A stretch of DNA of 64,000 nt, taken from the NCBI GenBank assembly GCA_018394295.1, contig CP074573.1, positions 1,054,001-1,118,000 of the forward strand. Direction: 5' to 3'. Shown piece by piece: positions 25,859 to 56,035 of the stretch. This DNA comes from Mycoplasmatota bacterium. GTDB lineage: Bacteria > Bacillota_I > Bacilli_A > Haloplasmatales > Haloplasmataceae. The notes under the pieces are model-generated. The model did no database searches, was not told the origin of the DNA, and saw only the letters and a program-made list of their open reading frames with translations. A program made the position numbers and the translations under genes. Within the stretch, counting starts at the first letter, position 1. The number at the start of each line of letters is the position of its first letter.

Positions 25859-25906
25859 ATTAAAGATAGAAGTAGAAACAATGAATTAAAAATTTAAGTT
25901 ATTAAG

Positions 25907-25925
25907 GCTCAAAATGAATTTGAGC
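25907..25925 (+). terminator. Terminator of thyA-folA-plsC
   Basis: GCTCAAA (25907-25913) pairs with TTTGAGC (25919-25925) around loop ATGAA, followed by TTTTTTT. Confidence 0.85.
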
Positions 25926-26056
25926 TTTTTTTAATGAAAATGATTATTACCTAGGCAATGAGTTTAGTAAATAATTTCTGAAAAGTTCATTTAAGGAAGA
26001 TTTATATGCACCTTAAAAATATTTGTGTCATAAAATAGATAATGGTTAAACTTTCA

Positions 26057-26085
26057 TCATATTCATGATTTATATATCATAAATT
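26057..26085 (+). promoter_or_regulatory. Putative sporulation sigma-E promoter of spoVID
   Basis: TCATATT (26057-26063), a 14-base spacer and CATAAATT (26078-26085) lie 33 bases before the spoVID start. The B. subtilis sigma-E consensus is about KMATATT, 14-15 bases, CATACAMT. The -35 fits fully and the -10 fits CATAnnnT. B. subtilis spoVID is itself sigma-E dependent, so match and context agree. The rest of 25926-26118 shows nothing else. Confidence 0.6.
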
Positions 26086-26118
26086 ATAATGATAAATAAT
26101 AAATAGGAGATGAATAGA

Positions 26119-27174
26119 ATGAAATATACAATACCATATGACGATAAGATAACTTTACCTCATATTAAAAAAATTGATAGTATTGGTATTAATGCAGATA
26201 ACCTATACTATGATGCTAGAGAATTAACAGGTGAAGTTATCATAACAGGAGATTATTTACTAGATAATAGTAATGATGTCATGGAATTTAAGCATGATAT
26301 TCCTGTATCTTTTTTAATTGATGATGAGTCAATTTCACCACAAATTAATATTTCTAATTTCAAATATGAATTAATTCCTGGAAGAGGGATTGAAGTTGTG
26401 TTTGATTTAGATGTAATTTTAACAGAAGAATTAGAGGAAGAAGAAGAGATTGTTCCTAGAATGAATAATGAAGAAAATGATAATCAAGATCTATTAAAAG
26501 AACAATCAGATGAAGAAGCAATTAAAGAATTTCAAGAAAAAATTGATGAGAATCTAGATACAGTACTTCAAAAGAGAAATAAAAAGAAAAAAAAGCAAAG
26601 TAAAAAAGAAGAACCGATTAAAGAGGAAGTAACCGAAAGAGAAGAAGATGATAAAGAAATTAAACTAGAAGAAGATACATTAGTTAAGGACGTGACAGAA
26701 GATATGGTAAAAGAAGAAGAACATGTAAATAGAGAAGAAGATGTGGAAGAGGAATCTGTAATTCAGGAAGAAGAACCAGCAACTCAAGCAGATGAAGAAT
26801 CAGTAATTCATACAGAAGAAGAGGATGAAACTACTATCGTTCAGGAAGAAGACCCAATAAATAGGGAAGAAGATGTGGAAGAAGCAAAAGATGTTCACAA
26901 GGAAGAGGAAGAAGTTAAACAAGTAGTACAGGAAGAAACGCCTGAGGAGGAAATTTTTCAAACTAATTTACAAGCAACTGTAGCTTCTTTTGATACTGGC
27001 TTTATACCTAGAGATAATGATAAGTATACCACTTATAAAATTTTATTAGTTGAAAAAAATGAAACCATAGATGATTTATTGGATTCAAGAAATTTATCAA
27101 AATCATTAATCTGTAAAGAATATCAATTCGATGACCAAAAAATTGTATTAAAATTAGAAGATGAAAAATTATAG
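26119..27174 (+). CDS. spoVID: SpoVID-like spore coat morphogenetic protein
   Basis: 351 residues in three parts. The N-terminal domain (about 1-115) has the pattern of the SpoVID/SPOCS domain (LTGEVIITGDYLLDN, FDLDVIL). A long, very acidic, low-complexity middle (about 115-280) contains NREEDVEE twice. A degenerate LysM-like segment ends the protein (YKILLVEKNETIDDLLDSRN). SpoVID directs coat assembly on the forespore surface. The gene order spoVID-ysxE-valS matches B. subtilis, which strengthens the call. AGGAG precedes ATG 26119. A sigma-E-like promoter lies upstream. Confidence 0.78.
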   Translation: MKYTIPYDDKITLPHIKKIDSIGINADNLYYDARELTGEVIITGDYLLDNSNDVMEFKHDIPVSFLIDDESISPQINISNFKYELIPGRGIEVVFDLDVILTEELEEEEEIVPRMNNEENDNQDLLKEQSDEEAIKEFQEKIDENLDTVLQKRNKKKKKQSKKEEPIKEEVTEREEDDKEIKLEEDTLVKDVTEDMVKEEEHVNREEDVEEESVIQEEEPATQADEESVIHTEEEDETTIVQEEDPINREEDVEEAKDVHKEEEEVKQVVQEETPEEEIFQTNLQATVASFDTGFIPRDNDKYTTYKILLVEKNETIDDLLDSRNLSKSLICKEYQFDDQKIVLKLEDEKL

Positions 27175-28129
27175 TCAAGCTCTCATTAATCATATAGAGA
27201 GTAATTATAATCTTAAAATTATACAAATCAGCCCAATTAATGAAGTATTAAAGATTAAGACTAACCAAAATCATGTTTATGTATTAAAAAAAGTAAAAAA
27301 AAGAGAAATTATCCAGGTTTATTACTTCTTATTATCTCAGAAGTTCACTCATTTTGTTATGCCTGAAAAAACAGTCTATAATCAAATATTTACCAGTTTT
27401 GAAAATCAACTGTATTATATGATTCCTTATTTTGATGATATCGATTATCCAATTGACAAGAAATTAATTGATTATATAGATTTATTGAATAAATTACACA
27501 AATCTACAACGATTCGGAAACATTTTAATCGACCACAATTTAATAAATTATTTAAAAAAAAGTTAAAACGATTAGATAAGCAGTTTCAACTTTTAGATTT
27601 ATATATTATTGAATGTGAAAATAAAAAGTATAAATCCATATTTGATTGGACTTATTTAGTGAAGTATAATGAAATAATGTATATAAAAAACATCTTATTA
27701 AAACTTCAATCACAGATTGAAAACTTAGTAGATGATATAGATAATTATGATTATTGTATTATTCACAATAATCCATCAATTGATCATTTTATAGTAACAA
27801 ATGAAAAAAATTATTTAATTAGTTTTGATCATAGTACAATTGGTTTTAAGGTACATGATTATATCAAATTATTTATTGATTATAGTGAATATGAAGTTGA
27901 TTGGATGACCTTAATTATTAATGATAAAATAACAAATTTTGAGTTTAATTATTTCATTTTTAATGTCCTTTATTATATTGTAAAGAATATAGAAATCACT
28001 TTTTTAAGTAATAATAAAAATTTAGAGTCAATTAATACATTGATTCATAATTTATTTGTTTGTGCTAAAGCGATTGAATTGTATCAAAAATATGAATCAG
28101 TAAATTCTTCTTCCGAAGAGCAAGAATAA
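27161..28129 (+). CDS. ysxE: YsxE/CotS-type kinase-fold spore protein
   Basis: A 322-residue protein with the pattern of the CotS/YsxE/YutH family, which has an aminoglycoside-phosphotransferase-like fold. In place of the catalytic HGDLHxxN loop it has IIHNNPSIDHFIV, and SFDHSTIG replaces the metal-binding DFD/DWE, so it may be catalytically dead. The ATG at 27161 overlaps the end of spoVID by 14 bases, so the two are translationally linked. B. subtilis ysxE occupies the same place. The role in the coat is inferred from family and neighbours. Confidence 0.78.
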   Translation: MKNYSQALINHIESNYNLKIIQISPINEVLKIKTNQNHVYVLKKVKKREIIQVYYFLLSQKFTHFVMPEKTVYNQIFTSFENQLYYMIPYFDDIDYPIDKKLIDYIDLLNKLHKSTTIRKHFNRPQFNKLFKKKLKRLDKQFQLLDLYIIECENKKYKSIFDWTYLVKYNEIMYIKNILLKLQSQIENLVDDIDNYDYCIIHNNPSIDHFIVTNEKNYLISFDHSTIGFKVHDYIKLFIDYSEYEVDWMTLIINDKITNFEFNYFIFNVLYYIVKNIEITFLSNNKNLESINTLIHNLFVCAKAIELYQKYESVNSSSEEQE

Positions 28130-28376: not shown

Positions 28377-28611
28377 CATAAATGAAACAACTGTGACCAG
28401 GAGGAGTAAAAATAAGAACTCTAACTAGAGAAGAACTGGTTGGTGAAAAGTTCTAGAGTACTATTTTGAAGGTAGCCTGTTGAGTTGGTATTATGAAATA
28501 AGAGTAGTAATATCCGTTAACCGCGTTAAGGTATGTAAGTTGGAATTATTGATTAATTCAAATAGGATGGTACCGCGATTTAAGTCGTTCCTTTATGGAA
28601 CGATTTTTTTT
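28377..28611 (+). promoter_or_regulatory. T-box riboswitch controlling valS
   Basis: A tRNA-sensing leader. The T-box core AGGATGGTACCGCG is at 28564-28577, and stem I features GGAGGAGTA (28401-28409) and GGTTGGTGAAA lie upstream. The terminator that competes with the antiterminator is TCGTTCC/GGAACGA (28585-28591, 28597-28603) followed by a T-run. A Val codon GTA at 28458-28460, on the 3' side of stem I next to the lower helix, is the best specifier candidate. A second GTA at 28472-28474 is less likely. Uncharged tRNA-Val should permit read-through into valS. Confidence 0.93.
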
Positions 28612-28712: not shown

Positions 28713-31349
28713 ATGAGTAAGAAAGACCTGGCTAAAAAATATAATCACCAAGAAGTTGAAAAAGGGAAATATCAATATTGGATTGATAATGGCTTTTTTA
28801 AAGCTGATGTTAAATCAAACAGACCGCAATATACGATTGTGATACCCCCACCTAATGTAACAGGTAAACTTCATTTAGGACATGCTTGGAATACTACCAT
28901 TCAAGATATCATTATTAGACGAAAAAGAATGCAGGGTTATGATGCGTTATGGTTACCAGGAATGGATCATGCAGGAATTGCGACACAAGCTAAAATTGAT
29001 GCTAAACTAGCTGAACAAAATATATCTCGTTATGACTTAGGAAGAGAGAAGTTTTTAGAAGCGGCTTGGGAATGGAAAAAAGAATACGCTGATTTTATTC
29101 GTGAACAGTGGTCAACTGTTGGGTTATCTTTAGATTATTCTCGTGAGCGTTTCACTTTAGATGAAGGCTTAAATCAAGCGGTTAATAAAGTATTTGTTGA
29201 TTTATACAATAAAGGGTTAATCTATCGTGGTGAACGTATCATAAATTGGGATGTTCAGGCGAAAACAGCATTATCAAATATTGAAGTTGAACATAAAGAA
29301 GTAGAAGGAGCTTTTTATTACTTTAAATATATGCTTGAGGATGGTAGTGGTTATTTAGAGGTAGCAACAACAAGACCAGAAACGATGTTTGGTGATGTAG
29401 CCGTTGCTGTTCATCCTAAAGATGACCGTTACAAGCATTTAGTTGGTAAAAAAGTACTAGTACCAGGGAATAAATTACCTGTTCCAATTATTTTTGATGA
29501 ATATGTTGATAGAGAATTCGGTACAGGAGCGGTTAAAATTACACCAGCCCATGATCCAAATGACTTTGAAGTTGGTAATCGTCATAATCTATCTCGTCCA
29601 ATATGTATCAATACTGATGGAACAATGAATGAATTAGCTGGTAAATATGAAGGGTTGGAACGTTTTCAATGCCGTAAGCAATTAGTAAGTGACCTACAAG
29701 CTGAAAATCTTGTGGTAAAAATAGAAAAACATCTTCACTCAGTTGGACATAGTGAAAGAACTGGAGTAATTGTTGAACCTTATTTATCAAAACAATGGTT
29801 TGTTAAGATGAGACCTCTAGCTGATCGTGTATTAGATATTCAACAAGATGAAGATAAAAAAGTCAACTTCTTCCCTGAACGCTTTGAAAAAACTCTAAAC
29901 CAATGGATGGAAAATGCATATGACTGGTGTATTTCACGTCAACTTTGGTGGGGTCATAGAATCCCTGCTTATTATCATAAAGAAACAGGAGAAGTATTAG
30001 TATCAGAAAAACCACCAAAAGACATAGAAAATTACATTCAAGATGAAGATGTATTAGATACTTGGTTTTCTTCTGCATTATGGCCATTTTCAACTTTAGG
30101 ATGGCCGGATACAAGCCGTGAAGATTACAAAAAATTCTTCCCAAATGATGTTTTAGTAACGGCTTATGATATTATCTTCTTTTGGGTTGCAAGAATGATT
30201 TTTCAGTCATTAGAGTTAACGGATACAAGACCATTTAAAACCGTATTGATTCATGGATTAATTAGGGATAGTGAAGGTCGAAAAATGAGTAAATCATTAG
30301 GAAATGGTGTTGACCCAATGGATGTTATCGATAAATATGGATGCGATAGCTTACGTTATTTCTTAACAACAAATTCAGCACCAGGACAGGATTTACGCTT
30401 TGTAGAAGAAAAAATTGAAGCTTCATGGAACTTTATTAATAAAATCTGGAATGCATCTCGTTATGTTTTAATGAATCTAGAAAATACAAGTGATGATCAA
30501 ATAGAAATTGAAAAAAGTGAATTAAATGTAGCAGATAAATGGATTTTAACCCGCTTAAATGAAACAATAAAAATAATTGATCAAAATTATGAAAAATTTG
30601 AATTTGGTGAGGTTAGTCGTCATTTAAATAAATTTGTCTGGGAAGACTATTGTGATTGGTATATTGAAATGTCTAAATTAACCTTATATGGTGATGATGA
30701 AAAAGCTAAACAAACAACAAGAGCTGTCTTAACGACTGTATTAGAAGCAATCTTAAAATTACTTCATCCATTCATGCCATTTGTGACAGAAGAAATTTAT
30801 CAATCAATACCGCATAGTAGCCAGTCAATCACGATAAGTGCTTGGCTAACGGTAAACAAAAGTTATCAATTTGATGAAGAGGTTACCATTATGAACTCTA
30901 TTCAAGAGATTATTAAATCTGTTCGTAATATGAGAAGTGAGGTAAATACACCTTTATCAAAACCAATTGACATGATGCTTAAAACAACAAATAAAGACTT
31001 TGAAGACAAATTAATTCAAAATCAAGCATATATTAATAAATTCTGTAATACATCTAAGTTAACCATCGCTAGTGATTTTAATATTACTGAAAAAGTGATG
31101 ACATCAGTCATCACAAATGGTGAAATATTAGTCCCATTAAAAGGATTAATTGATATTGAAGGAGAAATTGAACGTCTTAAAAATGAACTAGTTAAATTAG
31201 AAAATGAAGTTAGTCGTTGTGAAAAGATGTTAATGAATCCTAATTTTGTAAATAAAGCACCTAAACATAAGGTAGATAGCGAAAAAGAGAAATTAGTTGA
31301 TTATAAAACAAAATATCAAATGGTTAAAGAACGACTTAAAGAACTATAA
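28713..31349 (+). CDS. valS: Valyl-tRNA synthetase
   Basis: An 878-residue class Ia synthetase that charges tRNA-Val. [16 protein letters not shown] contains the HIGH motif and [10 protein letters not shown] the KMSKS motif. The CP1 editing domain lies about residues 190-345 ([12 protein letters not shown]). A C-terminal coiled coil begins near residue 810 ([17 protein letters not shown]), typical of ValRS. AAAGGAG precedes the ATG. A T-box leader regulates it. The folC gene that follows valS in Bacillus is absent. Confidence 0.98.
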
Positions 31350-44742: not shown

Positions 44743-45060
44743 ATGAATTATAATAAGTTAAGATCTGAATGGAAAGAAAGAATTGAAGAATATCAAAAAA
44801 GTGGATTATCAAAATCAAAATGGTGTAGGGAAAATGGGTATAAATTACATCAACTTCTATATTGGATTAAAAAGAATAATCAAAATGAAAAACAAGCACA
44901 AGAAATTAATTGGGTACCCATTCCTATTAATCATGAAATGGTTGAAATGAATGAAGAAAAATGTATTACGATTAAAATAGGAAAATGCAATATAAAGGTT
45001 GAACCAGGGTTCAATGGGAATCATTTAAAAGATGTGGTAAAGGTGTTATCAGAATTATGA
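44743..45060 (+). CDS. tnpA: IS66 accessory protein TnpA
   Basis: 105 residues with an N-terminal helix-turn-helix (IEEYQKSGLSKSKWCRENGY) typical of IS66 TnpA (IS66 Orf1). GGAGG precedes the ATG. It overlaps tnpB by four bases (ATGA) and is intact, unlike the two following genes. Confidence 0.88.
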   Translation: MNYNKLRSEWKERIEEYQKSGLSKSKWCRENGYKLHQLLYWIKKNNQNEKQAQEINWVPIPINHEMVEMNEEKCITIKIGKCNIKVEPGFNGNHLKDVVKVLSEL

Positions 45061-45409
45061 TTAAACTCAAGGATGTAAAAACAGTTTATTTCGCGACAGG
45101 ATATACTGATTTAAGAAAATCAATTGATGGACTATCTCTTATTGTAAAAAAACAGTTTGATTTAGATCCATTTTCAAATAACTTATTTGTTTTCTGTAAT
45201 AAAAGTAGACAAATTTTAAAAATTTTACATTGGGATTATAATGGTTTTTGGATATATAAAAAACGATTAGAAAGTGGTAAATTTAATTACCTAAAAGTGA
45301 ACAGGAGATTACAAGTTCATCTTTAAAAGAATTTTATTGGTTTTTAGATGGTTATGAAATACGTAATGGAAAGGCCTTTAAAGAGGTTAAGCAAAGGGGG
45401 ATTGTATAG
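45057..45409 (+). pseudogene. tnpB: IS66 TnpB, frameshifted
   Basis: The first 80 codons read as TnpB (TVYFATGYTDLRKSIDGL, WDYNGFWIYKKRLESGKF). A one-base loss near the A4 at 45294-45297 then shifts the frame. The -1 frame continues the family sequence KSEQEITSSSLKEFYWFLDG to TAG at 45407-45409. The full protein would be about 117 residues, the usual length. Confidence 0.85.
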
Positions 45410-45486
45410 TTCCCTTTTCTTTATATAATTAGACTTTTTTTTCATTTTATGGTAAAATAAAGTATCAAAAAAAGGTGAGAAAAGCA

Positions 45487-47041
45487 ATGAAAAAAGTAGA
45501 CTTAAATAAACTAACTAAAGAAGAATTAATTGAATATATCTCATCACAAGATTCTAAAATAGTAGAACTTCAAAATAAAGTGAAAAATTATGAAGAGTTC
45601 TTTAAATTATATCAACAAAAGCGTTTTGGATCTTCTAGCGAGAAAATTGATCCTAATCAACAAAGTCTAGAATTATTTAATGAAGCTGAAAAGGAATCAA
45701 ATTTAAATCGCGAAGAACCTAAACTTGAAAAAATTACCTACACCAGAAATAAAAAAGGACGAAAAAAAGTACTGATTATTTAAAAACTCTTCCTGTTGAA
45801 GAAATACATTATTATCCTGAAGAAAAAGATTGTCCACAATGTGGTTTTCTACTTCATGAAATGAGTACTGAAGAAAGAACTGAAATTGTAGTTATTCCGC
45901 CTAAAGTAAAAATCAAGAAACATATCCGTCATATAGTATCCTGTCGATTATGTGAGAAAAGTGAAATTAGAACGCCTATAATAAAAGCTAATATGCCTTA
46001 TCCTGCAATACCAGGAAGCTTAGCTTCATCATCTTTAATTGCGTATATAATGGATCAAAAATATACAAATGGGTTACCTCTTTACAGACAAGAGAAACAA
46101 TTTGAAAGATTGGGAATATTTTTACCACGACAAAATCTTTCTAACTGGGTAATTAAAGGTGCTGCTTGGTTGGAAATCTTATATAATCGTATGCATAAAT
46201 TATTACTTCAAAAAGATATCCTACATGCAGATGAGACAACTACCCAAGTATTGAAGGAAAACGGGAGAGAAGCAAAATCAAAGTCCTACATGTGGCTTTA
46301 TCGAACAGGTTCAGAGGGGAAAGCAATTGTTTTATATGATTATCAGACGACAAGAGCAGGTAAACATCCCGAAGAGTTTCTTGAAGGATTTAAAGGATAT
46401 CTTCAGGTGGATGCATATACTGGATATCATAATATTCCTAATGTAATACTTGTTGGGTGCTGGGCACATGCGAGGAGAGGATTTGCCGAAATAGTAAAAG
46501 CTCTATCGAGTGATGATGTGTCCATTGCGAAAGAGGGATTAACTTTCTGTAATCAGTTATACTCAATTGAGCATAAAATAATGGACTTAACACCTGAAGA
46601 AAAGTATGAAATAAGAAATAATGACAGTCGAGAGATTTTGGATGATTTTTTAGTATGGCTTAAAAATCAAGCAGAAGAAATTTTACCTAATTGTAAACTT
46701 GGTAAAGCTATTAAATATTGTCTCAATCAATGGGATAATCTTGGAAGATACCTACTTGATGGGAGATTAGAAATTGATAATAATAGAGCTGAAAGATCAA
46801 TTAAACCTTTCGTGATTGGAAGAAAAACTGGTTATTCTCTAATACTCCTAAAGGAGCAAAATCAAGTGCCATCATATATAGTGTTATTGAAACCGCGAAG
46901 GAGAATAATATAAAACCAATTGAATATCTAACCTATTTATTTGATAGATTACCAAATGTAGATTTGAATGATGAACAAATTCTAGACACATTATTACCTT
47001 GGTCAGATGAACTCCCTGAAAATTGTAAATTGAACACATAA
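45487..47041 (+). pseudogene. tnpC: IS66 transposase TnpC, two frameshifts
   Basis: The DDE transposase of the element. The first frame (MKKVDLNKLTKEELIEYI...) breaks at A7 (45762-45768) and resumes one base back as STDYLKTLPVEEIHYYPEE, with zinc-type DCPQCG. The catalytic core has HADETTTQVL, LQVDAYTGY and IDNNRAERSIKP. A second break at A5 (46823-46827) hides the C-terminus NWLFSNTPKGAKSSAIIYSV, which runs to TAA 47039-47041. Each break is repaired by one extra A. About 518 aa if restored. Confidence 0.88.
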
Positions 47042-47093: not shown

Positions 47094-48984
47094 GGTTCTT
47101 TCCAAAGTTATTGGATTTATAGTAAAAATTAATAGTAGACTTTATTTGCCTACTTTACTTAAATCTATCATTTTAATGATTCCAATAATAATACTTTAGA
47201 CCTCAGTAGATCAAATTTATTTCTGCCATACATAATCCTTTTTATAGATTTTAGTTTATTAACACTTCCTTCTACTAAACCGTTATTATAACTATACTTT
47301 ATGGCATTTTCTACGGCATCTTGGTCATTTTGTATACCATTAATGAAACTATCAATTTCCTGAATTTCAGATTCTCTTGCCCGTTTAATCCATTTACTTA
47401 AACTGTCTTCTGTATCTTCAAGTAACAAAAGTCTGAATTCTTTTAGTCTTTCAAAGAGTACTTTTATGTCTGGATATTTTTTGAAAAATTCATTCAATTG
47501 ATTCTCCGTGATCCCTTTTACCTTTTCAAGTGGTTTATATAATAATTTATTGATCAAACGTTTGTCTAAAAATTCTGTAGGTTCTTTTGTAGACGAGGTG
47601 TCTTTAGCTAAACGCTTTTCTTTTGAGATAAAAAATCTCAATCCATCTACAGTTCCTGTGTATCCTTTTTCCCTTATATGTTCTGTAATCTTCTTATATG
47701 TTATCCCATTAGCACGCATATCAATAACTTCATCTCTAAATGGCATTAGTTTACCATTTCGGCCTGTTCCATATTGTCCGTGCACAGGATTGAATTCACC
47801 TTTGAGATAAGTATCAATGCTTGTAGTGCTATATCCTGTTTTCTTTGATATGTCTCTTTTTGTATACCCTTTATTCCATAATTCTAGCACCTTATTTCTT
47901 TTCTGTTCCACTTTCGAAATGGCGTTGATGTGCTCTTTTCCACGTACAGTTATTTTCTCTTTAGGTATATCTTCTTCCTTCATTTTTATATATTTAGCAA
48001 CTGTTGTTGGTGAAACACCTAACTTATTTCCAATCGTATCATAGCTATTTCCTTCCTTTGCATATAAACGCCTGGCTTCAATAATTTTTTCTCTACGGCT
48101 TAAACCACAAAGATAATCATAACGTTTCTTTCCATCTTGTGATATGAGTGGTATTTCAATGCGACCTGTAATTATTCGTTTCATATACTTTGATATGGAT
48201 TTCACTAAATTTTTAACTAAATGAAAACGATCACTTACCTGAGTGGCTTTAGGATGAGCGTCTGCAATAGCCGAGCGATAAGTTGTTGAGCCGTCACGTG
48301 AGACGAGTTTAATATTTGGAAACGTAGTAAGCCATTCCGTAACTTTCATACTATCTCTTGATTCTAATAAGTCTATAATACATTTAGTTTCAATATCTAC
48401 CATAATTGTTCCATATGATTTTCTCTTTTTTATCGCAAAGTCATCTATACAGACATATTTAACTTCACTCTTGTTTATGACTAGAGTTTTTTTTTAGGTA
48501 ATTACAAATTGAGCTTTTCTTGATTTCAACGGTCGTATCTGAAAGGTATTTTGCCGCCGATATAGAACTTTGAGTCAAAGAAACTCGTATAATTTCATCA
48601 ATTAATCTTTTCGTTTTCTTGCCTTTTTGATCAATAAAACCAAAGCTTTCTGAAAATGTATACTTCTTACAATTTGGATTTGTACAGAACATATTTTTAT
48701 TTTTTAGTGCAATAACAACTTTTTTCCCCTGTAATGGCAAGTCCTGAAAGCTTTTATTGTATCTAGAATGTACTTTTGTACTTTCCTCTCCGCATAGAGG
48801 ACATGGGAGTGACTCCTTATTTGATTTTACATTAATGTATAAAGTATCATCAATTAACTCATGTGATATGTAATCAAGACTTTCGTCAAGCATTTTAATT
48901 ATTTCGTCCATAAGGTACCTCCACTTTTGATACCTTTATTATAACATATTTTTACATAAAATTCCAATAACTTTGGAAAGAACC
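47094..48984 (-). mobile_element. ISL3-family insertion sequence nested in the IS66 right end
   Basis: Perfect 22-bp terminal inverted repeats (47094-47115 and 48963-48984, beginning GGTTCTTTCCAAAG) bound the element. They are flanked by the 8-bp target duplication TATTTGAC (47086-47093 and 48985-48992), which belongs to the IS66 terminal repeat. Both 8-bp duplication and GG-starting repeats fit ISL3. The single transposase gene runs on the minus strand and is split by a frameshift. Confidence 0.95.
47168..48911 (-). pseudogene. ISL3-family transposase, split by a one-base frameshift
   Basis: The upstream piece (48911 to 48465, 148 aa) has the zinc-finger CPLCGEES...CTNPNCK and ends at NYLKK. 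The sequence resumes in another frame as VKYVCIDDFAIKKRKSYGT (first catalytic Asp) and continues into a 411-aa frame (start 48403) with VSRDGSTTYRSAIADAHPKA and the C-terminal GLVEGSVNKLKSIKR (catalytic Glu). The break lies in A9 (48487-48495); A8 would give one open frame of about 580 aa. Transposition would need restoration or slippage. Confidence 0.88.
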
Positions 48985-54734: not shown

Positions 54735-55298
54735 ATGAGCATTAATGTATTTAATGAAACAGAAATTGAACTAATAAAAAATAATCCAAATGTTAAGCGT
54801 GTGTCAAGTAAATCTATTACTTATACCCTTGAATTCAAGATTGACTTTATGCATGAATATAGAGGCGGAAAATTACCACGTCAAATATTTATTGAACATG
54901 GTTTTGATGTTGATATTATAGGGATGAAACGAATAGAACAATGTGCAACTAGATGGAAGAGACTTTATAATGACGGAGGCGTTGTTTCACTTGATGATTC
55001 CCGTAAAGATAATCGAGGAAGATATAAGCATGAAATTCAAACCGAAGAACAAGAGATTGAGAAATTAAAGGCTAAAATTGCTTTAATAGAAATGGAAAAT
55101 GATATGTTAAAAAAGCTCGACGAAAGCGAAAGGAGGAATGGGAAAGAAATAAGAAAAAGTGATAAATTTGAGATGATCAAAAAGTCATCCATAAATCTAG
55201 AAGACCAGGAATACAAGATTATTTATGTAGTGTGGCAGAAGTATCAAGAAGTGGTTACTATAACTACCATTCAGAAAAATCAAAGAAGAATAGAATGA
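54735..55298 (+). CDS. IS3-family OrfA (helix-turn-helix and leucine-zipper part)
   Basis: 187 residues. KSITYTLEFKIDFMHEYRGG and the following basic helices form the DNA-binding part. EEQEIEKLKAKIALIEMEND then MLKKLDES is the leucine-zipper coiled coil typical of IS3 OrfA. AAGGAG precedes ATG. It overlaps orfB in the -1 frame. The orfB frame is open from about 55171, and C_AAA_AAG at 55178-55184 is a plausible slip site for making OrfAB. Confidence 0.85.
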   Translation: MSINVFNETEIELIKNNPNVKRVSSKSITYTLEFKIDFMHEYRGGKLPRQIFIEHGFDVDIIGMKRIEQCATRWKRLYNDGGVVSLDDSRKDNRGRYKHEIQTEEQEIEKLKAKIALIEMENDMLKKLDESERRNGKEIRKSDKFEMIKKSSINLEDQEYKIIYVVWQKYQEVVTITTIQKNQRRIE

Positions 55299-56035
55299 AA
55301 AAGGAACAAAATGATAAGAAAAGATTTAAACTCATCAAGGAAGTATTTGAGGTTGGAAAGAAAAAGTATGGTGCTAAACAAATTAAGATGCATTTAAAGG
55401 AAAACATGAATTTGAAGTCCATTAGAAGAATTATGAGTAAATATGGTCTAGTATGTAAAATACGTAGACAGGATCCTTATAAGCAGATGTTAAAAGCAGA
55501 TCAAAACCATAGAGTACACAAGAATCATTTAAATAGAAACTTTGATCAGCAGTCTCCATATAAGGTGTTACTGACTGATATTACGTATATAAGGTATAAT
55601 AATAGATTCGCATATTTATCTACCATATTAGATGGTAGTACGAAAGAATTAGTTGCTTATAAGGTATCAAATAATCTTAAAATTGACTTTGTATTGGATA
55701 CAGTTAAAGAATTAGACAATATAAACTTACCCGAAAATGCCATTATACATTCGGACCAAGGAAGTCATTATACAAGTCCTAAATTCTCAAAAGAAGTGAG
55801 GTCAAGAAACTTACTTCAATCAATGTCTCGTAGAGGTAACTGTTGGGATAATGCACCTATAGAATCGTTCTTTGGCCATATGAAAGACTATATAGACTTT
55901 TCAGAATGTAAAACATTAAAAGATGTAGAACTAAAAATAGATGATTATATGTACTATTACAATCACCAAAGATATCAGTGGAAACTAAATAAGCTGACTC
56001 CTATTGAATTCAGGAATCAGCTTAAAGCAGCATAA
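55232..56035 (+). CDS. IS3-family OrfB (DDE integrase domain)
   Basis: 267 residues from the first usable start; as part of an OrfAB fusion it would begin near 55171 (VIHKSRRPGIQDYLCSVAEV). The catalytic residues are in LLTDITYIR, IIHSDQGSHYTS and APIESFFGHMK. YNHQRYQWKLNKLTPIEFR is the normal C-terminus. No breaks are seen. This copy is probably active, unlike the IS66 and ISL3 elements. Confidence 0.9.
   Translation: MAEVSRSGYYNYHSEKSKKNRMKKEQNDKKRFKLIKEVFEVGKKKYGAKQIKMHLKENMNLKSIRRIMSKYGLVCKIRRQDPYKQMLKADQNHRVHKNHLNRNFDQQSPYKVLLTDITYIRYNNRFAYLSTILDGSTKELVAYKVSNNLKIDFVLDTVKELDNINLPENAIIHSDQGSHYTSPKFSKEVRSRNLLQSMSRRGNCWDNAPIESFFGHMKDYIDFSECKTLKDVELKIDDYMYYYNHQRYQWKLNKLTPIEFRNQLKAA

Follow-up and report, generated by a model that had tools for sequence, protein, structure and literature searches.

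Why does a genome of the Haloplasmataceae, a family noted for cells without a wall and placed by NCBI in the Mollicutes, carry a gene pair resembling the spore coat operon spoVID–ysxE? In the titles, abstracts and passages that our literature search covered, we found no report of spore formation by members of this family and no description of sporulation genes or of SpoVID in Haloplasma or its relatives. Here we analyse the pair in its 64-kb context (the window, that is, the whole 64,000-nucleotide stretch), which belongs to a two-contig genome of 3,293,660 bases with about 28% G+C. We conclude, with good though not full confidence, that the pair is a mother-cell spore coat operon of an intact endospore programme.

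The operon occupies 26119–28129 of the forward strand, with the spoVID-like gene first, the ysxE-like gene second, and a T-box leader and valS downstream (Table 1). We placed the spoVID start at 26119 because six relatives align from MKYT, MRYT or MNYT and because the earlier ATG, at 26110, is itself part of the ribosome-binding sequence AGGAGATGA. The pairing recurs in all seven family loci that have the gene, and valS is downstream in each of the five further family loci long enough for testing. In several loci from other families, lon or engB adjoins the pair; lon–engB lies about 14 kb upstream of the operon in the window. The initial annotation had likened the order spoVID–ysxE–valS to that of Bacillus subtilis, in which valS is the next gene after the pair. 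Here valS does come next in sequence, but a T-box leader stands between it and ysxE. The pair itself forms a single sigma-E-controlled operon in B. subtilis, as passages of PMC2860764 describe. Elsewhere in the window, transposase-like open reading frames (ORFs), some of them apparently in pieces when judged by eye, are found at 44743–46913, 47168–48911 and 54735–56035.

Table 1. Features of the spoVID–ysxE-like operon and its surroundings, in window coordinates.
Feature	Position	Strand	Basis or remark
Terminator-like hairpin	25904..25928	+	Ends the upstream acyltransferase gene and sets the operon apart from it
−35 box TCATATT of the sigma-E-type promoter	26057..26063	+	Invariant across 7 loci at 4 of its 7 columns
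−10 box CATAAATT of the sigma-E-type promoter	26078..26085	+	Invariant across 7 loci at 7 of its 8 columns
Conserved stretch ATAATGATAAA directly 3′ of the −10 box	26086..26096	+	Invariant across 7 loci at 7 of its 11 columns
spoVID-like gene, 351 aa	26119..27174	+	Start moved from 26110
Probable SPOCS domain, N-terminal, SpoVID-like protein	26119..26421	+	Profile match, E 4.9e-15; model all-beta
LysM-derived C-terminal domain, SpoVID-like protein, without second loop	27025..27171	+	Alignment, model
ysxE-like pseudokinase gene, 322 aa	27161..28129	+	TIGR02904, E 9.1e-20; 14-base overlap with spoVID
HNNPSIDH at the site of the kinase catalytic loop HGDxxxxN, ysxE-like	27764..27787	+	Alignment
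T-box leader of valS (RF00230)	28384..28595	+	Outside the spore operon
Terminator stem of the valS T-box leader	28582..28606	+	Belongs to the leader in front of valS
valS, conserved neighbour	28713..31349	+	Follows the T-box leader

Pfam and NCBIfam scans with the window SpoVID-like protein by itself gave no match, so its assignment required relatives and profile comparison. A single-sequence search recovered the protein in 7 of 60 genomes, all of them among the eight from Haloplasmataceae; G005, which is 85% complete, was the sole family genome in which this search found no match. PF20918 (SPOCS_spoVID-N) left the window protein unmatched and detected two of the seven family members (best E 0.002). 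Comparison of profiles linked the family's N-terminal 100 residues to 19 SpoVID-like proteins from other families (probability 98.4, E 4.9e-15), of which 16 match PF20918 and 10 match LysM (E ≤ 0.1). These proteins come from twenty loci taken because they carry ysxE (98 of the 296 class genomes match TIGR02904), 19 of which have an ORF of at least 150 aa in the spoVID position before ysxE. The SpoVID model TIGR02907 matched none of the seven family members, and its two weak matches in the window genome are other LysM proteins; across 295 genomes of the phylum it mostly found other LysM proteins and none above its cut-off, which left no Bacillales SpoVID for direct comparison. At the C terminus, five columns of the second LysM loop are absent from the alignment in all seven family members and in none of the 19 others, and the first half of the domain is kept. 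The conserved LysM threonine position holds T in five family members, and N and S in the remaining two. The modelled C terminus has a beta-alpha-alpha-beta topology at a pLDDT of about 65–78; a fold search with the model of the protein, whose mean pLDDT of 53 is too poor for the result to mean anything, returned no match at E 0.001.

The YsxE-like protein matches TIGR02904 at 71.1 bits, under the cut-off of 263.55, which B. subtilis passes and none of the 296 class genomes does. Its named relatives, which make the family assignment clear, come from Inordinaticella fortuita, an uncultured Haloplasmataceae bacterium, two Bacilli MAGs and a MAG labelled Haloplasma contractile B5_bin.1. Foldseek and VIA-align matched its model (pLDDT 69) to spectinomycin phosphotransferase, YtaA and phosphotransferases, matches that support the fold class only, given an rmsd of 15–16 Å and differently placed lobes. 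HNN replaces HGD at the catalytic loop in all seven family members, and HGDxxxxN is also lost in all 14 other ysxE loci outside family f11. The exception among these proteins is f11 itself (L112–L117; perhaps Turicibacteraceae), in which all six YsxE-like proteins keep HGDVNVAN whereas the other 21 lack HGDxxxxN; f11 may thus preserve a YsxE kinase that is ancestral and still active. Inactive members of the bacterial spore kinase family are known according to passages of PMC2860764, and ysxE insertions caused a strong sporulation defect in Bacillus anthracis in the part of PMC12700454 that deals with them. As neither protein reaches a curated cut-off, we refer to them as divergent SpoVID-type and YsxE-type proteins.

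The initial annotation had recognized a sigma-E pattern just ahead of the SpoVID-like gene, and TCATATT, 14 bases and CATAAATT are found exactly as it claimed. The site fits the sigma-E consensus at 14 of 15 positions. Because dinucleotide shuffling of the 260-base intergenic region produces this score 25 times in 2000, and five sites in the window (both strands) score 14, the score by itself is only suggestive. Conservation in 7/7 Haloplasmataceae loci, amid variable sequence, makes the site more than a chance match: the consensus scores, our own locus included, are 14, 14, 14, 13, 13, 13 and 12, and 11 of the 15 promoter columns are invariant. Among the 104 other upstream columns only 15 are so (Fisher p = 5.8e-6), and among the 14 spacer columns only 1 (p = 3.8e-4), p values that are optimistic because the sequences are related. 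Nor can shared coding sequence explain the footprint, since the upstream neighbour varies, being by eye an acyltransferase (L011, L015), a divergent methyltransferase-like gene (L010, L013, L014) or another gene (L012). Between the terminator-like stem and the spoVID-like gene, no sigma-70-like site was seen on the forward strand. We interpret TCATATT-N14-CATAAATT as a sigma-E-type promoter, from which sigma-E would transcribe the pair.

The rival that survives best, though we judge it unlikely, is that the conserved element is a promoter or operator of a factor other than sigma-E. Its motif is A+T-rich in a genome of low G+C content, the shuffles reach its score, and so does one of 54 control regions upstream of other gene copies, a set in which scanning with the same consensus singled out no further sigma-E candidates by score; a second conserved block also lies upstream in four loci. 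Such a reading has to contend with an intact sigE, with two conserved boxes that flank a freely varying 14-base spacer, and with an alike two-box footprint ahead of spoIVA (GAATA, 14–16 bases, AATATAAT; 7/7 loci read), although the CATA cytosine is missing from the spoIVA boxes, GAATAT and AATATAAT, a point against our main reading. The second block, CATAAAATAGATAATGGTTAAACTTTCATCATA at 26029–26061, lies just 5′ of the promoter in our locus, L010, L011 and L012 out of the seven; given its resemblance to the −10 region, it may represent an operator or a further promoter.

If sigma-E drives the operon, the rest of the programme should be at hand, and the initial annotation had named spo0A, sigE, sigG, sigK and spoIVA as the genes to look for and the absence of sigE or other essential sporulation genes as the finding that would count against it. 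All five are present. The genome encodes spoIIGA–sigE–sigG, spoIIAA–spoIIAB–sigF with spoVAC, spoVAD and spoVAE, and also sigK, a sigH-like gene, spo0A, spoIVB, spoIVA, spoVD and a spoVK-like gene. SigE, SigG and SigK each score above one curated cut-off, as do SpoIVA, SpoIVB, Spo0A, SpoVD, SpoVAC, SpoVAD and SpoVAE above theirs; SigF and the sigH-like protein fall below equivalog cut-offs, and we assigned their names from rank and neighbouring genes. Four alpha/beta-type SASP genes of typical sequence stand in tandem (C1:1565964–1567206, L168). SpoIVA, Spo0A and SASPs occur in all eight family genomes, as does a SpoVK-like protein (one a fragment, all under the equivalog cut-off), and a SpoIID domain occurs in seven, being missing in G004. 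The only SpoIID-domain match of the window genome is a LysM fusion, a 595-aa frame with four LysM domains (C1:602246–603184; L001, L187). On this searched set, the endospore programme appears intact. The SASPs do not fit a 2024 ancestral reconstruction covering the order, which infers, in the passages of PMC10868615 that concern it, that all SASPs were lost towards this part of the tree; they thus call into question a loss before this branch. Elsewhere in the genome (L026, C1:1473904–1477107), a gene for an ECF-type sigma factor lies between two long, nearly repeated acidic-protein genes that share a stretch with SHAFSTIAIDVNPSLVLELDEDDKVI or similar; the arrangement resembles that of a sigma factor whose membrane anti-sigma-like partner has been duplicated.

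A gene set can outlast its use, and the initial annotation had called both the LysM-like end and the kinase partner degenerate. Residues and a loop are indeed missing, but this looks like conserved divergence and not like decay: the changes are common to all seven family members, and ysxE and the SPOCS and C-terminal parts of spoVID are under purifying selection, with pairwise dN of 0.06–0.17 against dS of 0.75–2.4, the dS being near saturation and one of 12 values undefined. The low dN/dS fits present or recent function of the pair and, with the gene set, supports the earlier suggestion that active or recent spore formation is implied. That the operon is vestigial, its genes decaying after a recent loss of sporulation, therefore seems to us very improbable: both proteins do lack residues that define their relatives, and spores have gone unreported in the literature that we searched for this family, but the same changes recur in 7/7 members, dN/dS is low in ysxE and in each of the two conserved spoVID parts, and all eight genomes have intact regulators, SpoIVA, Spo0A and SASPs. 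Slightly less probable still is that the genes are kept for growing cells, for instance to control the envelope or shape of contractile cells without a wall, for although the family has many MreB genes (six strong matches in the window genome, seven in G006) and the YsxE fold class has other roles too, the promoter is of the sigma-E type with no sigma-70-like site seen, and a complete spore programme is present.

For the spore coat operon that we favour, the following course of events can be proposed. Spo0A and sigma-F would start sporulation, after which sigma-E would transcribe the operon from the promoter at 26057–26085. Through its LysM-derived end, the SpoVID-like protein would dock on polymerised SpoIVA around the forespore, and its SPOCS domain and acidic linker would bring in other coat proteins, including the YsxE-like pseudokinase in the role of a scaffold. 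Because the second LysM ligand loop is gone, we propose that the SpoVID-like protein no longer sequesters lipid II; any coat-to-cortex checkpoint would run through SpoIVA and the SpoVK-like ATPase. In B. subtilis the LysM domain of SpoVID binds SpoIVA, lipid II and SpoVK, and the T532G substitution disrupts binding of the peptidoglycan precursor without mislocalizing SpoVK, as described in passages of PMC10659427. In SipL of Clostridioides difficile, it is the first half of the LysM domain that determines function with SpoIVA, and the second half is exchangeable, according to passages of PMC6436350. A report cited there found no peptidoglycan binding by the SpoVID LysM domain, which leaves the other group's work as the basis of the lipid II role. 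For the protein described here, we infer that SpoIVA docking is retained and lipid II binding lost. With the SpoIVA, SpoVK and lipid II roles all placed on one LysM domain in B. subtilis, a natural SpoVID-type protein without the second loop should be useful for separating them.

A spore programme in this family also bears on a puzzle about its walls. No wall was seen in H. contractile by electron microscopy (passages of PMC7761423), and peptidoglycan genes have been reported for this wall-less species, with murEF absent and aminosugars possibly serving carbon and nitrogen storage (passages of PMC7301438). The division cluster of the window genome comprises murE, mraY, murD, a SpoVE-like SEDS gene, murG, murB, ftsA, ftsZ and SpoVD (murB, murD, ftsA and ftsZ identified by eye). 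SpoVD, the only PBP in this cluster, scores 715.9 bits against a cut-off of 688; the SEDS protein scores 443.8 bits against 448.8 and passes the FtsW cut-off too. Three transpeptidases were found in the genome, SpoVD plus a pair of class A PBPs. A single class B-like match, the sporulation-type SpoVD, turned up in seven of the eight family genomes, and a second class B PBP was found only in G006, the classes being assigned by domain scan for these two genomes and by length and similarity for the others.

G006 is probably the H. contractile type species: it has seven strong MreB matches and 32.2% G+C over 53.5 kb, and the published genome is described, in the passages that give its statistics, as having 32.29% G+C, 3,404,505 bases, 34 scaffolds and seven MreBs. 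We had considered the window genome as the H. contractile type strain and dropped the idea, given its 28% G+C and six strong MreBs. Upstream of spoVD in G006 (C3:224000–242000, L190), an FtsL-sized ORF of 113 aa and a MraW-like gene precede the second class B PBP, which has 703 aa with PASTA and is 32% identical to SpoVD; the clusters L174, L191 and L192 begin with spoVD. FtsI was either lost in the other family genomes or gained in G006, and gene order argues for loss; its loss throughout Haloplasmataceae was dropped as a reading, as G006 retains the second class B PBP. The murE of G006 (L190:6729–8243) is intact and scores 518 bits (cut-off 373), although passages of PMC7301438 report the absence of murEF for H. 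contractile.

These observations allow a more tentative proposal, which we think possible but rather less than even: growth is wall-less, and the mur genes, SpoVD, the SpoVE-like SEDS protein and the class A PBPs build the spore cortex. In the course of giving up its vegetative wall, the lineage would have lost FtsI (PbpB), the transpeptidase of division, and kept SpoVD, and the SpoVID-like checkpoint protein would have lost its lipid II-binding loop alongside. The FtsI kept in G006 is evidence against peptidoglycan being confined to spores in that species, and where SpoVD stands alone it might function in growth too, beside its part in sporulation. Peptidoglycan kept for spores in Haloplasmataceae is a live hypothesis. 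A spore programme in the same family offers a different, testable answer to why H. contractile has peptidoglycan genes, and makes it testable whether wall-less bacteria keep wall-building genes for spore formation.

Operons of the kind described here are known; the novelty lies in the host and in a SpoVID-type protein whose LysM domain lacks the second loop. We know of no operon that joins the SipL of C. difficile to ysxE. By published description, SipL resembles our protein in combining SPOCS, probable in our protein, with a C-terminal LysM-type domain, and the half of that domain relevant to SpoIVA in SipL is the half kept here (passages of PMC6436350). With B. subtilis SpoVID the window protein shares a probable SPOCS-type N terminus, an acidic middle, a LysM-derived end, a ysxE partner and a sigma-E-type promoter, but it has 351 aa rather than 575 (from residue numbers in passages of PMC10659427), lacks the second LysM loop and matches neither TIGR02907 nor PF20918. 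Its partner, although 71 bits compare poorly with the YsxE cut-off of 263.55, is like YsxE of the bacterial spore kinase family in following spoVID, in its kinase-like fold and in having YtaA among its best matches, and in the loss of the catalytic Asp it is like the pseudokinases of that family, as passages of PMC2860764 describe them.
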